Shown here: positions 56,206 to 60,866 of the stretch, in pieces | Position numbering within the stretch: the stretch's first letter is position 1 | Layout: each line of letters begins with the position of its first letter | Assembly: GCF_000787855.1 (NCBI RefSeq) | Contig: NZ_BBPQ01000001.1 | Coordinates: 168,529 to 232,528 of the forward strand | DNA: 64,000 nt | Reading direction: 5' to 3' | Source: Streptacidiphilus anmyonensis | GTDB lineage: Bacteria; Actinomycetota; Actinomycetes; Streptomycetales; Streptomycetaceae | Position numbers and translations under genes: made by a program | Notes under the pieces: generated by a model | What the model saw: the letters and a program-made list of their open reading frames with translations, nothing else | The model's database searches: none | Told to the model about the DNA's origin: nothing

Positions 56206-56485
56206 CCTCACGGTGGACAGGACTCGGCGTCCCGTTCGACGGGTGTCCACTGCTGTGGACCTCAGGGAGGCTAAGCGGGTTTTCATATGAATCTCAATCA
56301 CGACACGAATCCCACTGTTTCGCACACTTCCCACTCGTCACGGAATCGCCGCACCGCACATGGGTTGACCTGCGGTTCTCGCATTGGCGCGGTATCAGCT
56401 GTGAGCTGCGTTACGGCACATCAATGGAGAAAGCGCTAAGCGACGCGCTCACGCCGAGTTTCTGACGAAACGTCGTCAACGCTTT
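56206..56485. other. AT-richer upstream region of the Rpf gene
   Basis: 280 bp with lower GC than its surroundings and no supported gene. It should hold the Rpf promoter. CATATGAATCTCAATCACG near 56284-56302 is the most AT-rich part. Confidence 0.45.
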
Positions 56486-57679
56486 TCAGCCGCGCACAAG
56501 GACTCGTCGGCGCGATCTGCGCCATTCCGACAGCGCCGTCCGTACCTGAGCGTCGGTGAGAACGGCCCGCACTCCGATCCACGGGAGCGCCCGTCCGACG
56601 ATCTCGGCCAACCGCTCCCGGACGACCGCCTCCCCCAGCAGGTCCGACGCCTCGCAGGTCCGGACGACATCGACGTAGACGGACCTGACGCGCTGGAAGC
56701 CGACGTACCAGCGCAGGTCGGCCTCCAGGCCCTTGACGGCCTTGGGCGCGACCCCACGCACCGCCCGCCGCCAGATCGCCCGCACCCTGCGGCGCTCCAC
56801 CTCGTTGCGGTAGCCGAAGCGCTCCAGGTGCATGGCCAGGTCGTGCAACGGGTCGCCGACCATGGCGAGTTCCCAGTCGATCAGCGTGGGCGTCCCGCCG
56901 TCGGCGGGGACGATGATGTTGCCGGCGTGGAGGTCGCCGTGGAGCAGGATGAACGGACGGCTCGTCAGCGGCGGCACGCGATCGGCGAAGCGCTGCAACG
57001 CGTCGTCGGGGAAGGCGAGTCCGCGCAACAGCGGCCCGTAGTCGCGCAGTACGGCGGGGGCCGTCTCCTGCTGGGCGTAGCGCACCTGCGCCATGAGGAA
57101 GCCCCGACTGTCGCCGTCGCTCGGCCAGTCCTCGGGTCGCCTCGGCAGCTTCTCCACGCGAACGGCCGCCAACTCGGCGAAGAAGGCAGCCAGCCAGGCG
57201 TGGATCCGCTCCTCGGGGACCGCGTTGCCGCGCAGCCGACGATCCGCCAAGGACTCACCCGGCGTGAAGGAGTGAAGGCGTTCGTTCAGCACCTGGGGAG
57301 CGCCGCCCACGCAGCCCTTGAGCGACTCCAGGATCTCCGTCTCCGACCACACGACCCGGTCGAAGCAGTACGTCTGACGTCGTGGCGACCGGAGCAGGGC
57401 CGGGGTTCCGCCCAGGTCGACCTCGACGTTCCGGTGTCGGAATCCCGTCAGCGCGACCCCATGACGAGCCAGCCACCAGACCGTCAACCCCGGGCACAGC
57501 CAGAAAGCCACCGCGAGCCGGCGTTTGGCCTTGGTGGCGCTGGGGTGAGGGTCCGGGCCTGGGATGGCTGCCCCCGCATGAGGAGAGGCGGTCGATGTTT
57601 GACCGCACTCTACTGCGGGAACTCGTGCCTCGCTCGACGGACTGGCCCATCGCAGCCGACCAATCTCACCTGGGGACAA
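56486..57679 (-). CDS. Phosphotransferase (APH-like kinase fold)
   Basis: The frame gives up to 397 residues, but the first 45-70 look non-native and the start is uncertain: the TTG at 57679 overlaps the preceding HAD gene by 14 bp. The kinase core is clear: RPFILLHGDLHAGNIIVPADGG (Brenner motif HGDLHAGN, catalytic Asp) and TLIDWELAMVGDPLHDLAMHLERFGYRN (metal Asp). Upstream is DRVVWSETEILESLKG. Similar enzymes phosphorylate aminoglycosides, choline, sugars or homoserine; the substrate here is not known. It is the last gene of a GntR-HAD-kinase operon. Confidence 0.8.
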   Translation of the reverse strand: MSPGEIGRLRWASPSSEARVPAVECGQTSTASPHAGAAIPGPDPHPSATKAKRRLAVAFWLCPGLTVWWLARHGVALTGFRHRNVEVDLGGTPALLRSPRRQTYCFDRVVWSETEILESLKGCVGGAPQVLNERLHSFTPGESLADRRLRGNAVPEERIHAWLAAFFAELAAVRVEKLPRRPEDWPSDGDSRGFLMAQVRYAQQETAPAVLRDYGPLLRGLAFPDDALQRFADRVPPLTSRPFILLHGDLHAGNIIVPADGGTPTLIDWELAMVGDPLHDLAMHLERFGYRNEVERRRVRAIWRRAVRGVAPKAVKGLEADLRWYVGFQRVRSVYVDVVRTCEASDLLGEAVVRERLAEIVGRALPWIGVRAVLTDAQVRTALSEWRRSRRRVLVRG

Positions 57680-58364
57680 AAGCCCTGGTCAGAACCTCCA
57701 TCTCGGCCACGACCGCACGCGCTCCGAGTTCGGTCAGGCGAGCGGCGTTCGTCCTGCCCTCCGGAACGAACCCGATGAAGGCGATGCCTGCCTCCCGCGC
57801 CGCCTCGGCGTCGGCCTCCGAGTCACCGATCAGGGCCACTCCGGCCCGGTCGACCACGCCCAGGCCGCGCAGCGCCCGCTCGATGCAGTCGGAGTGCGGC
57901 TTCATCCGCCACGGCTCCCGCGGATCGCGACCGTGTATGCCTCCGGTGAAACGTTCCAGCAGTCCTTCTCTTCTCAAGCAGCCGTCGATCGCGTCCCACG
58001 CGTTGTTGCTCGCCACCGCCAACGGGATCGACAGACCCTCGATCAGGTCCCGCACCCCGGGCGTCAGCTGCGCCGTCGAGACGGCCTCGCACTCCCGCTC
58101 GGTCAGCCACTTCTCCGCCTCCGCGAGCGCGGCGCTCGCCACGCCCCGCATCCTCCGCAGGATCGTGTGAGCGTTCCGCTCCTGCTCCAGACCGGTCAGG
58201 TCCGCATCGTGCCCGCGAAGGATCTCGCGGAGGTCATCGGCCATCCGTCCGGTGTCATGTCCCTCGAAGAGGCGGCAGACGGGTCCGTCGAAATCGAAGA
58301 GCAAGGCGCGCACATCCGCGGTCCATGCCCGGTCGAGCGCGAATCCTGATGCGGGTGGGATCAT
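57666..58364 (-). CDS. HAD family hydrolase
   Basis: The protein is 232 residues from the ATG at 58364, which shares one base with the GntR stop (TGATG). Motif I is LLFDFDGPVCRLF (nucleophile Asp; the usual T of DxDGT is P), motif II PLAVASNN, motif III Lys in WRMKPHSDCIERAL, and motif IV GVALIGDSEADAEAAREAG. It is a phosphatase-type HAD-IA. Coupled to a kinase-fold protein, it may act on the same phosphorylated small molecule; this is inference. Confidence 0.88.
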   Translation of the reverse strand: MIPPASGFALDRAWTADVRALLFDFDGPVCRLFEGHDTGRMADDLREILRGHDADLTGLEQERNAHTILRRMRGVASAALAEAEKWLTERECEAVSTAQLTPGVRDLIEGLSIPLAVASNNAWDAIDGCLRREGLLERFTGGIHGRDPREPWRMKPHSDCIERALRGLGVVDRAGVALIGDSEADAEAAREAGIAFIGFVPEGRTNAARLTELGARAVVAEMEVLTRAFVPR

Positions 58365-59182
58365 CAGGCCAGTTTGTAGGGGCGTGCCCGCCCTGACCAG
58401 ACGGACTCGAACCATCGCTCCGCCGTCGCGACCGGTATCTCGAACAGTGGCGCCTCCAGTCCGAACACGTCCTGGATCTTTGTGGGTTCGCCGTCTCCGA
58501 GCGGAACGTCCCGGTCCAGGAACTCGTACAGCCCCTGGAGGGCGAGCCGGCGGTTGACGATGTAGAGCTTCATGACCGGCGTCAGCGGCACCGCCTTGAT
58601 GTCGACCGTGAAGACGCCCTCCGGCTCGTCGATCGCCAGGGTCTCCAAAGTCAGCTGCAACGACCGTACTTGGTGGCGGGTGATCTCCGCCTGCCGCATC
58701 CGGGGAGCCGGATCGTCGGGGTCGGCCACCGCGTAGGGCACCGCCAGCTTGGCGGTCGGATCGGGCAGCAGCAGGCGCAACCGGATCTCGCGCGGCGGCG
58801 AGGCGCCCCCCAGGGCCCTCAGCCGGTCGAGCTTGGGCGCCAGGCTCAGCGCCAGCGTCTCCGCCGTGAACCCGAAGTAGTCGATGGCGACCTCGGATTC
58901 GGCGAGCACCCGGTCCAGGATGTCGTCCAGCACGTCGATCGCCTGGGACGACTGGGGCTCGCCCGCCGCGTCGGCGACGACGGGAGGAGCGCCCCGGCCC
59001 CCCGTGATCAGTCCCTCGGCCAGGAGTTCACGCAGCGCCCTCTGCACCGTGGACGGCGCCACGTCGTACTGGTGGGCCATGACGCCCCGCGACGGCAGGC
59101 GTTCGCCGGGCCGCATGGCCTTGATCTGGTCCCGCAGCGCCGCGACGACCCGCTCGGTCGCCGTCTCCGGCTCCGCGCCCAT
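58364..59182 (-). CDS. GntR-type winged-helix regulator with unusual C-terminal domain
   Basis: The protein is 272 residues from the ATG at 59182, preceded by GGGGAGG; a GTG at 59191 would place the ribosome site too close. The N-terminal wHTH (about 8-75) contains RPGERLPSRGVMAHQYDVAPSTVQRALRELLAEGLITGG in parts. The C-terminal part (about 90-272) is not the common FCD or UTRA domain that I can recognise; it includes IRLRLLLPDPTAKLAVPYAV. It heads the operon with HAD and kinase genes and probably binds the AAGTTGAC motifs upstream. Confidence 0.85.
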   Translation of the reverse strand: MGAEPETATERVVAALRDQIKAMRPGERLPSRGVMAHQYDVAPSTVQRALRELLAEGLITGGRGAPPVVADAAGEPQSSQAIDVLDDILDRVLAESEVAIDYFGFTAETLALSLAPKLDRLRALGGASPPREIRLRLLLPDPTAKLAVPYAVADPDDPAPRMRQAEITRHQVRSLQLTLETLAIDEPEGVFTVDIKAVPLTPVMKLYIVNRRLALQGLYEFLDRDVPLGDGEPTKIQDVFGLEAPLFEIPVATAERWFESVWSGRARPYKLA

Positions 59183-59241
59183 ACGCGCCACCTCCCCGCC
59201 GGTTGACTACCCATTTTGAGCCAGTCAGGAACTGTCCACCA

Positions 59242-59331
59242 GAAGTTGACCGCACGTCAGTTTATGGATCAGTCAACTTCGGGACAATTCCCGTAGTGGT
59301 GGTCATCTCGGTCAGCTTGCGCCAAGTTGAC
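59242..59331. promoter_or_regulatory. AAGTTGAC motif cluster upstream of the GntR operon
   Basis: GAAGTTGAC (59242-59250) and its exact complement GTCAACTTC (59272-59280) form an inverted pair 21 bp apart. GTCAGCTT (59311-59318) and AAGTTGAC (59324-59331) form a second, closer pair with one mismatch. A related GGTTGAC is at 59201. They sit between the divergent GntR gene and the small membrane-protein gene. Confidence 0.6.
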
Positions 59332-59437
59332 CGAGTCGGCCACGACGGGGGAAGCAGCATCCCGGCGCCGGCCGACGCTGTCCGGCACCCGTGTCTCCCC
59401 CTCCCCTGAGCCGCTGCGGGTTCCGAGGAGGAAATCC

Positions 59438-59638
59438 ATGAAGGCACTGTTCCGCCCACCAGGTGTCGCCACCGCACTCGCACTCGTCCTGCTGGTCGAG
59501 TGGTGGGTCACCCGGCACGTCCCCGGCCTGGGCTTCGCCCTGCTGGCGGCGACGGCTCTGTTCAAGAAGCAGTACGCGCAGGGCGCGCAGCTCTGCATCA
59601 CCCTGTTCGCGCTCTACGTCCTGCTCAACCGCCGCTGA
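59438..59638 (+). CDS. Small double-pass membrane protein
   Basis: The protein is 66 residues from the ATG at 59438, with a strong GAGGAGG. It has two hydrophobic stretches (VATALALVLLVEWWVTRHV and GLGFALLAATALF) and a third weaker one (LCITLFALYVLL) with a QYAQGAQ loop. I do not know the function. It is divergent from the GntR operon and may be regulated by the same motif cluster. Its last 14 bp overlap the convergent P450 gene. Confidence 0.7.
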   Translation: MKALFRPPGVATALALVLLVEWWVTRHVPGLGFALLAATALFKKQYAQGAQLCITLFALYVLLNRR

Positions 59639-60866
59639 CGGAGAACTCCACCGGCAGTTGCCTGAGCCCCCGCATGATGAGGCCGCCGCGCCAGCGCAGT
59701 TCGGCTGGGTCGGCGGCCAACGTGATGTCCGGGACGCGGCGCAGCAGGGCGGAGAGGGCGTACTGGGCCTCGAGCCGTGCCAGCGGAGCGCCGATGCAGT
59801 AGTGGATGCCGAGGCCGAAGGCGATGTGGGGGTTGTCCCGGCGGGCGAGGTCGAGGGTGTCCGGGCCCGGGAAGCGGGCGGGATCGCGGTCGGCGGCGGC
59901 GAGGACGACCAGGACCGGATCGCCCGGGGCGATGTCCTGGCCGCCGAGGGTGAGCGGCTCGGTGGCGAAGCGCCAGGTGGCGATCTCGACCGGGCCGTCG
60001 AAGCGGAGCAGTTCCTCGACGGCCGACTCCAGCGGCGCGGTCTCGCCCCGGGACAGGGCCCCCTGCAGCCCCGTCCGCTGCTCGGGGTGGGTGAGCAGCG
60101 CGAACATGCCGTTGCCGATGAGGTTGACCGTGGTCTCGAAGCCGGCGAAGAGCAGGATGAAGGCCATCGCTGCGGCCTCGTTCTCGGTCAGGTGCTCGCC
60201 GTGGTCACTGGCCCGGATCAGGCCGGAGATCAGATCCTCGCCCAGGTCCGCGCGCTTGCGGTGGATCAGCTCGGCCAGGTAGCCGCGCATCTTCTTCACG
60301 GCCCGGCCGACGCCGCCGCGCGGCGACTGGCCGTGGTGGATCATCATCCCCGCCCAGTCGCGGAAGTCGTCCTGGTCCTCGCGCGGCACCCCGAGCAGGT
60401 CGCAGATGGCGTAGATCGGCAGCGGAAACGCGAACTCGTGGATCAGGTCCGCGGTGCCGCGCTGCGCGAAGCCGTCGATCAGGCGGTCTGTGATCTCCCG
60501 CACACGCGGCTCGAACGCCGCGATCCGGCGCGGTGTGAACGCCTTCGAGACGAGGCGGCGCAGCCGGGTGTGGTCCGGCGGGTCGATGTTGAGCAGGTGC
60601 GTCATCAGGTCCGCGCTGCGTTCGCCCGGGATGCCGACGCGCCCGCTGCGGTGCGCCTGGAGGCTGTGTTTCGCCGGGTTCTTGCTCAGTCGCGTGTCCG
60701 CCAGCGCCTGGCGTGCGTCGGTGTAACGCGTCACCAGCCAGGCGTCGACCCCGCTCGGCAGCGTCGTCCAGTGCACCGGCGCGTGCTCCCGCAGCCAGGC
60801 GTACGCGGGGTAGGGATTCGCTGCGAACTCATGCGAAAAGAGCGGAGGCGGGGAGACATCGTGCAC
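59625..60866 (-). CDS. Cytochrome P450 (bacterial class I, CYP107-like)
   Basis: The protein is 413 residues from the GTG at 60866. The I-helix motif LLFAGFETTVNLI (AGxxT) is intact, ExxR is VEELLRF, and the heme-thiolate motif is FGLGIHYCIGAPLARLEA with Cys near residue 357. It needs external electron donors; no ferredoxin gene is adjacent. The substrate is unknown. TAACGT lies 6 nt before the GTG and no Shine-Dalgarno sequence is seen, so the message is probably leaderless. It overlaps a small membrane-protein gene at the 3' end by 14 bp. Confidence 0.94.
   Translation of the reverse strand: MHDVSPPPLFSHEFAANPYPAYAWLREHAPVHWTTLPSGVDAWLVTRYTDARQALADTRLSKNPAKHSLQAHRSGRVGIPGERSADLMTHLLNIDPPDHTRLRRLVSKAFTPRRIAAFEPRVREITDRLIDGFAQRGTADLIHEFAFPLPIYAICDLLGVPREDQDDFRDWAGMMIHHGQSPRGGVGRAVKKMRGYLAELIHRKRADLGEDLISGLIRASDHGEHLTENEAAAMAFILLFAGFETTVNLIGNGMFALLTHPEQRTGLQGALSRGETAPLESAVEELLRFDGPVEIATWRFATEPLTLGGQDIAPGDPVLVVLAAADRDPARFPGPDTLDLARRDNPHIAFGLGIHYCIGAPLARLEAQYALSALLRRVPDITLAADPAELRWRGGLIMRGLRQLPVEFSVSGG

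Follow-up and report, generated by a model that had tools for sequence, protein, structure and literature searches.

A DevA/DevB-type regulator and phosphatase accompanied by a kinase gene at a variable chromosomal slot of Streptacidiphilus

The genes and their control region

The window analyzed here is a stretch of 64,000 nucleotides from Streptacidiphilus anmyonensis. Three genes lie on its minus strand between positions 56486 and 59182, where a first interpretation made from the letters alone (the sequence-only reading) had placed them. The devA-like gene (58364..59182, minus strand) encodes a GntR-type winged-helix repressor of 272 amino acids with an effector domain of the DevA subfamily. 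Its Pfam GntR match (4.6e-10) covers residues 9 to 61 only, and the C-terminal domain is as unfamiliar as it had been said to be: for that part, no sequence match to Pfam, to NCBIfam or to a solved structure was listed. The devB-like gene (57666..58364, minus strand) encodes a HAD phosphatase of 232 amino acids (Pfam Hydrolase, 2.8e-14, and HAD_2) with DFDGP as motif I. The proposed coupling of the two genes by TGATG is indeed present: the regulator stop and the phosphatase start overlap, sharing the A at 58364. The third gene (56486..57511, minus strand, probable GTG start at 57511) encodes a small-molecule kinase of the APH/choline-kinase fold (341 amino acids; Pfam APH, 2.1e-22), for which we coined the label DevK.

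The kinase gene had been read as overlapping the phosphatase gene by 14 bp, but this requires a TTG start at 57679, and the frame is broken by a one-base indel near 57592 in comparison with Streptacidiphilus neutrinimicus. In the DNA alignment, the next GTG kept in both species is the one at 57511. Because the indel breaks the TTG frame and this GTG is conserved, we predict a kinase of 341 amino acids behind a 154-nt gap; the overlap is probably an ORF artefact, and the longer frame, which reaches the TTG at 57679, is unlikely to be translated.

DFDGP in place of DFDGT had been singled out as a feature of the window phosphatase. The motif is there, but it is a family signature, present in 21 of the 21 HADs found as neighbors of regulator homologs. 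Residues D24, D26, K155, D181 and D185 of the phosphatase are likewise invariant (21/21), as are H170, D172, N177 and D191 of the kinase (30/30); active members of the HAD and APH families typically carry these motif residues. The kinase model (pLDDT 94.3) has its best PDB match in TvaE (8jsu_D, E 2.5e-8). The protein shares its fold and catalytic-type motifs with TvaE, macrolide 2'-phosphotransferases and choline kinases, but it reaches no equivalog cut-off, and we rejected its identification with a known resistance kinase, the NCBIfam matches lying far below their cut-offs (best, 30 bits against 650). Since the solved structures closest to it are of different kinds (TvaE, choline kinase, macrolide kinase), we drew no conclusion about the substrate from the fold.

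Two features upstream of the regulator had been overlooked. The first is a divergent, hydrophobic ORF of 66 amino acids (59438..59638, plus strand), which is 80% identical in the genome designated G008 and 91% in G002. The differences fall mostly on third codon positions (10/5/17 by codon position in G008, 4/3/11 in G002), and from this pattern and the similarity we consider the ORF to be probably coding. It occupies the position of devC, a gene for about 50 amino acids, but its match to a profile of Streptomyces devC is not significant (E 0.05). Small hydrophobic divergent ORFs of about 70 amino acids and of other sequence are found in the devC position of the G006 and G004 cassettes (L054:9582-9796 and L262:6659-6880).

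The second feature is a candidate operator (59239..59333) in the gap that separates the small ORF from the regulator, with AAGTTGAC boxes at 59243-59252 and 59324-59333 and, on the minus strand, at 59270-59279 and 59309-59318 (the latter with one mismatch); the number of boxes is kept in G008 and G002. The arrangement AAGTTGAC-N5..35-GTCAACTT occurs at only one place in the 9.39-Mb genome, upstream of the window regulator. TTGAC/GTCAA is present four times in each of the upstream regions of the window, G008, G002, G018 and G019, a number reached in none of 500 mononucleotide shuffles, and three times in those of G001 and G015; the upstream regions of G011, G005 and G022 hold one copy each and show no enrichment. 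Among 109 regulator upstream regions (the non-redundant part of 148), AAGTTGG is present in 62 and AGTTGTA in 59, compared to 4.5 and 1.6 in shuffles, these seven-mers being the most enriched of all and picked after the fact. Together, the upstream boxes would fit a dedicated autoregulatory operator. A promoter scan gave no sigma-70-like site, and terminator-like sites numbered 2, compared to 0.8 in shuffles.

A slot of variable content

The cassette, which we delimit to 56420..59642 from blastn breakpoints and from the empty site of G009, is flanked by an Rpf-like gene on one side and a P450 gene on the other. Among 14 genomes of the genus, this slot is empty in five (G003, G007, G009, G010 and G013; 355 to 460 bp and no cassette), holds the regulator only in one (G004), regulator and phosphatase in two (G006 and G012), and all three genes in six (the window, G008, G002, G001, G005 and G011). 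In G009, no more than about 120 bp lies between the flanks. The flanking genes are conserved over the slot genomes in which they were found, with protein identities of 89 to 100% for enolase and 76 to 96% for P450.

Similarity of the flanks does not predict that of the cassette. G006, a close relative, is 92.9% and 91.9% identical to the window on the two sides of the slot, and its enolase and P450 proteins are 100% and 96% identical, but its cassette is a different one, lacking the kinase and with a regulator and a phosphatase that are 35% identical to those of the window. According to blastn, similarity stops and resumes at 56304/59643 in G006 and at 56308/59642 in G012, and the left breakpoint of G002 is at 56420. 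The flanks of G008 are no closer to the window than those of G006 (flank proteins 89 to 99% versus 90 to 100%; P450 DNA 93% in both), yet the proteins of its cassette are 80 to 88% identical to ours; the 90.2% blastn piece obtained for G008 is a single one that spans the cassette, and is not a flank-only figure. In G002, similarity to the window is high for the small ORF (91%) and for the box region (80 to 92% DNA identity), while the effector domain, phosphatase and kinase fall to about 36 to 65% DNA identity. Such discordance between flanks and cassette argues for replacement by recombination, or for loss followed by regain, rather than for slow divergence. In the stretches read at the slot, neither an integrase nor a clear target duplication was seen. 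The cassette is thus, very probably, an exchangeable unit, replaced, acquired and lost whole at one chromosomal position in closely related bacteria.

Relation to the DevA/DevB system of Streptomyces coelicolor

The purpose of the genes had been called unknown, which is half right: the regulator and the phosphatase almost certainly belong to the DevA/DevB-type family, members of which influence sporulation in S. coelicolor (PMC3187754, in the parts of that paper used here and below). In that species, the genes are arranged devE-devC-devA-devB (SCO4190 region); devA and devB act in development (aerial hyphae and sporulation) and their mutants have developmental phenotypes, devA is co-transcribed with devB, and DevA represses both its own gene and devB (PMC3187754). 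DevB is described there as a putative phosphatase, and no ligand of DevA is named in the parts used here. The window resembles this system in having a DevA-subfamily GntR regulator followed by a HAD-type phosphatase or hydrolase, with a small divergent ORF upstream. It differs in that the pair lies in the Rpf/P450 slot, falls in a separate clade and is accompanied by a kinase; regulator and phosphatase are 19 to 40% identical to the Streptomyces rows of our alignment.

Membership of the DevA subfamily follows from a GntR Pfam match above cut-off and from a C-terminal profile that links the window regulator to regulators of Streptomyces arrays having the published gene arrangement; the link therefore runs through these array regulators. 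Regulator matches at E<=1e-10 were found in 22 of 61 genomes, its own included, and a profile at a stricter threshold matched in 16 of 148 genomes of the class. Six residues (R136, K205, Y219, D238, G241 and W262) are invariant in all 46 aligned proteins. A tree of 84 effector-domain rows, rooted at midpoint and with bootstrap values that are not fully settled, groups the window regulator with those of G008 and G002 (support 99/95) and separates it from a clade of 18 rows (100/100) with most Streptomyces copies directly followed by a HAD gene; the clade of S. coelicolor devA was assigned by gene arrangement. Given this separate clade and a chromosomal place different from that of the Streptomyces devA/devE pair, the window regulator is to be classed as a member of the DevA subfamily and not as the ortholog of devA. 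The same genome holds a second regulator and HAD pair, without a kinase (contig C142, 40134-41641; L038:8363-9645), whose regulator falls with those of Kribbella, Nonomuraea and Kineosporia.

The likeness to S. coelicolor extends to paralogs that Streptomyces keeps in arrays at a conserved position of the chromosome. There, in the named loci, regulators stand in arrays with HAD, kinase and 62-amino acid divergent ORFs, close to genes of the RsiG, Dtd, YgfZ and Fur types (RsiG by Pfam, the other names by our reading of the sequences). RsiG is the anti-sigma factor of WhiG. Among the best 80 of 481 phosphatase hits, single loci (L058 to L135, for example L067 and L102) carry up to five regulator, two phosphatase or three kinase copies within a few genes of RsiG. 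In G032, two regulator genes enclose a short match to DevB (L048:7937-8050), which suggests a decayed array cassette.

The winged-helix domain of the window regulator matches the solved DNA-binding domains of the HutC/DasR, FadR, MocR and AraR subfamilies of GntR proteins, but none of them matches its effector domain in sequence; the model hints at a phospholipase-D-like fold instead. With the AlphaFold2 model (mean pLDDT 93.6), Foldseek returned a list dominated by winged-helix proteins that also included vaccinia F13 (E 4.5e-4), MITD1 (1.5e-3) and TrmBL2 (5.4e-4), which we take to have phospholipase-D-like folds. The signature of the phospholipase-D fold is the HxK(x4)D motif; in the alignment, K205 (46/46) and N210 (42/46) stand where its lysine and aspartate would be expected, and the histidine is lost. 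A search of viral structures gave mainly winged-helix matches, and the rows of a second aligner lie mainly over residues 3 to 77. Homology to phospholipase D at the sequence level was rejected, as hhalign gave a probability of only 0.9% between the effector domain and 19 PLDc_2 domains of relatives, so that the statement on the fold comes from Foldseek. A degenerate phospholipase-D fold is, at this stage, a weak lead from structural models.

Company of the three genes and possible function

In other genomes, the three genes are found mostly together, whichever gene is taken as the starting point, and not scattered, which the sequence-only reading had named as the outcome that would refute it. 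The 481 confirmed phosphatase hits were followed for the best 80, which gave 78 named loci; in these, the regulator lies within 3 kb of the phosphatase in 78 of 78 cases and the kinase within 6 kb in 66. Because the DFDGP pattern itself served to retrieve these loci, they are no independent evidence on that motif, for which the independent count is the 21 of 21 given above. Starting from the regulator, the phosphatase is nearby in 25 of 27 places and the kinase in 16. Starting from the kinase, 18 related kinases occur in 15 of 61 genomes, 14 of them at regulator/phosphatase loci. These counts support the view that the genes form a functional unit, and the grouping is far beyond chance. The profiles used for them stem from proteins of these very loci and, in arrays, the phosphatase or kinase counted may belong to a neighboring cassette. 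The kinase is not a universal partner of the regulator and phosphatase. It is missing in 12 of the 78 loci (again among the best 80 of 481 hits): all five that are not from Streptomycetaceae (0/5 with a kinase), L112 and L120, where the stretch ends soon after the phosphatase, and five others, that is, 7 of 73 within Streptomycetaceae.

In the single-copy loci, the three genes are co-stranded in 20 of 20, in the order regulator-phosphatase-kinase in 17 and regulator-kinase-phosphatase in 3. Their distances are correlated (n=20; each about 0.0005 by permutation), the pairs with the kinase (0.48 with the regulator, 0.51 with the phosphatase) more weakly than regulator and phosphatase (0.73). The correlations drop after control for flanking genes, most for regulator and kinase (0.13 to 0.41 against four of five control genes, 0.62 against the fifth). 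On plasmids, the phosphatase is present in 7 of 72,556 records and the kinase in 8, all seven phosphatase records also carrying the kinase; these seven represent three lineages (S. canus, whose five plasmids are near-copies, S. aurantiacus and Streptomyces sp. NBC_01724), with representatives that carry all three genes by profile. The eighth kinase plasmid is from Nocardia and has a kinase relative without companions; in a Nocardia plasmid (L137:8917-10747), a DevA-type regulator is directly followed by a family 2 glycosyltransferase in place of phosphatase and kinase.

The four kinases located elsewhere belong to G014 (twice), G037 and G040. Both G014 and G040 have a large ATPase-like gene immediately upstream; in G014 the two kinase matches are consecutive, and one has an internal TGA. 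Distant relatives of the kinase occur in genomes without a regulator match, after a large ATPase-like gene of about 830 amino acids (L156:4735-9247 and L158:2864-6336), which has a weak AAA_16 match at L156, the locus tested.

The kind of regulator and phosphatase found here is already known. For the kinase as third partner, a limited search of the devA/devB literature, which yielded one devA/devB paper, gave no mention, the terms 'kinase' and 'phosphotransferase' having no occurrence in the text of the 2011 DevA paper (PMC3187754). The best overall explanation, to which we give roughly even odds (about 0.5), is that a control cassette of the DevA/DevB type, enlarged by a kinase, works as a self-adjusting metabolite sensor. 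The DevA-like protein would bind the AAGTTG-type boxes between its own gene and the divergent ORF and repress the cassette, as suggested by the boxes and by the published autoregulation, which is known from S. coelicolor only, whose devA type belongs to another clade of the tree. The kinase would phosphorylate a small metabolite from which the DevB-like phosphatase would strip the phosphate, and either the phosphorylated or the unphosphorylated form would be the ligand of the effector domain, so that the cassette adjusts its own sensing of one metabolite. That kinase and phosphatase act on the sensed molecule is a tentative proposal, already put forward in the sequence-only reading, that we rate somewhat below the sensor reading as a whole. 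The clean presence, absence and replacement at one slot indicate that the three genes move as one unit, and such fast turnover would point to strain-to-strain differences in the sensed metabolite. Counting against the sensor reading, the regulator, mostly with its phosphatase, persists without the kinase in the non-Streptomycetaceae and Streptomycetaceae loci mentioned above and in G004, G006 and G012. The weaker distance correlations of the kinase pairs, the lack of TTGAC enrichment upstream of the regulators of G011, G005 and G022, and the limitation of the autoregulation result to S. coelicolor weigh on the same side. Should the sensor reading be correct, the kinase provides a handle, since what it phosphorylates and DevB dephosphorylates would be a candidate ligand of DevA.

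A bolder version goes further than we would readily defend: each cassette would decode one phosphorylatable metabolite, being block-swapped at the slot and on plasmids so that every strain tunes development or competition to another molecule, and the effector domain would be a dead phospholipase-D fold in which K205 reads the phosphate. That a sporulation-linked gene family behaves as a swappable accessory cassette is in any case unexpected for a developmental regulator.

Two other functions fare less well than the metabolite sensor. The locus could be a plain DevA/DevB developmental operon, with the kinase a passenger that has grown common in Streptomycetaceae without sharing a pathway. Its absence outside that family (0/5) and from three of nine occupied slots in the genus, the weaker distance correlations and the silence of the 2011 paper on kinases would all be expected of a passenger; such a gene, however, should occur alone more often than is seen, given 14 of 18 kinases at these loci, a common strand in 20 of 20 and a kinase on all seven phosphatase plasmids, and we therefore regard this reading as disfavored and unlikely. 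It is also doubtful that the genes form a xenobiotic or antibiotic module, in which the kinase inactivates a foreign or self-made compound, DevA is the sensor and DevB recycles or edits the product, with exchange following the compounds of neighbors. No curated resistance kinase scores above cut-off, the kinase is often absent where regulator and phosphatase persist, and the S. coelicolor mutants have developmental phenotypes (PMC3187754, in part), despite the structural neighbors of APH and macrolide-kinase fold, the plasmid copies, the presence, absence and replacement at the slot and the paralog arrays that speak for such a module.

A polymorphic self/non-self or conflict locus, at which diversity itself is selected and the kinase/phosphatase pair sets a strain-specific signal, appears improbable: empty, partial and divergent cassettes do share one slot between conserved genes, flank and cassette similarity are discordant, and in two genomes a large ATPase gene (weak AAA_16 match at L156) adjoins distant relatives of the kinase, but the unit has no PADLOC match, no recognized toxin or immunity gene and no phage copies, and the comparison spans 14 genomes only. 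An anti-phage defense system was rejected, with no PADLOC family for any of the three proteins and no phosphatase or regulator copy in the phage records.

A last observation concerns the small divergent gene of the published system. The SCO4189 promoter is listed as SigF/H/N-dependent in S. coelicolor (PMC8346170, in the part of that source used here), and SCO4189 would be devC, by its number between devE (SCO4188) and devA (SCO4190).
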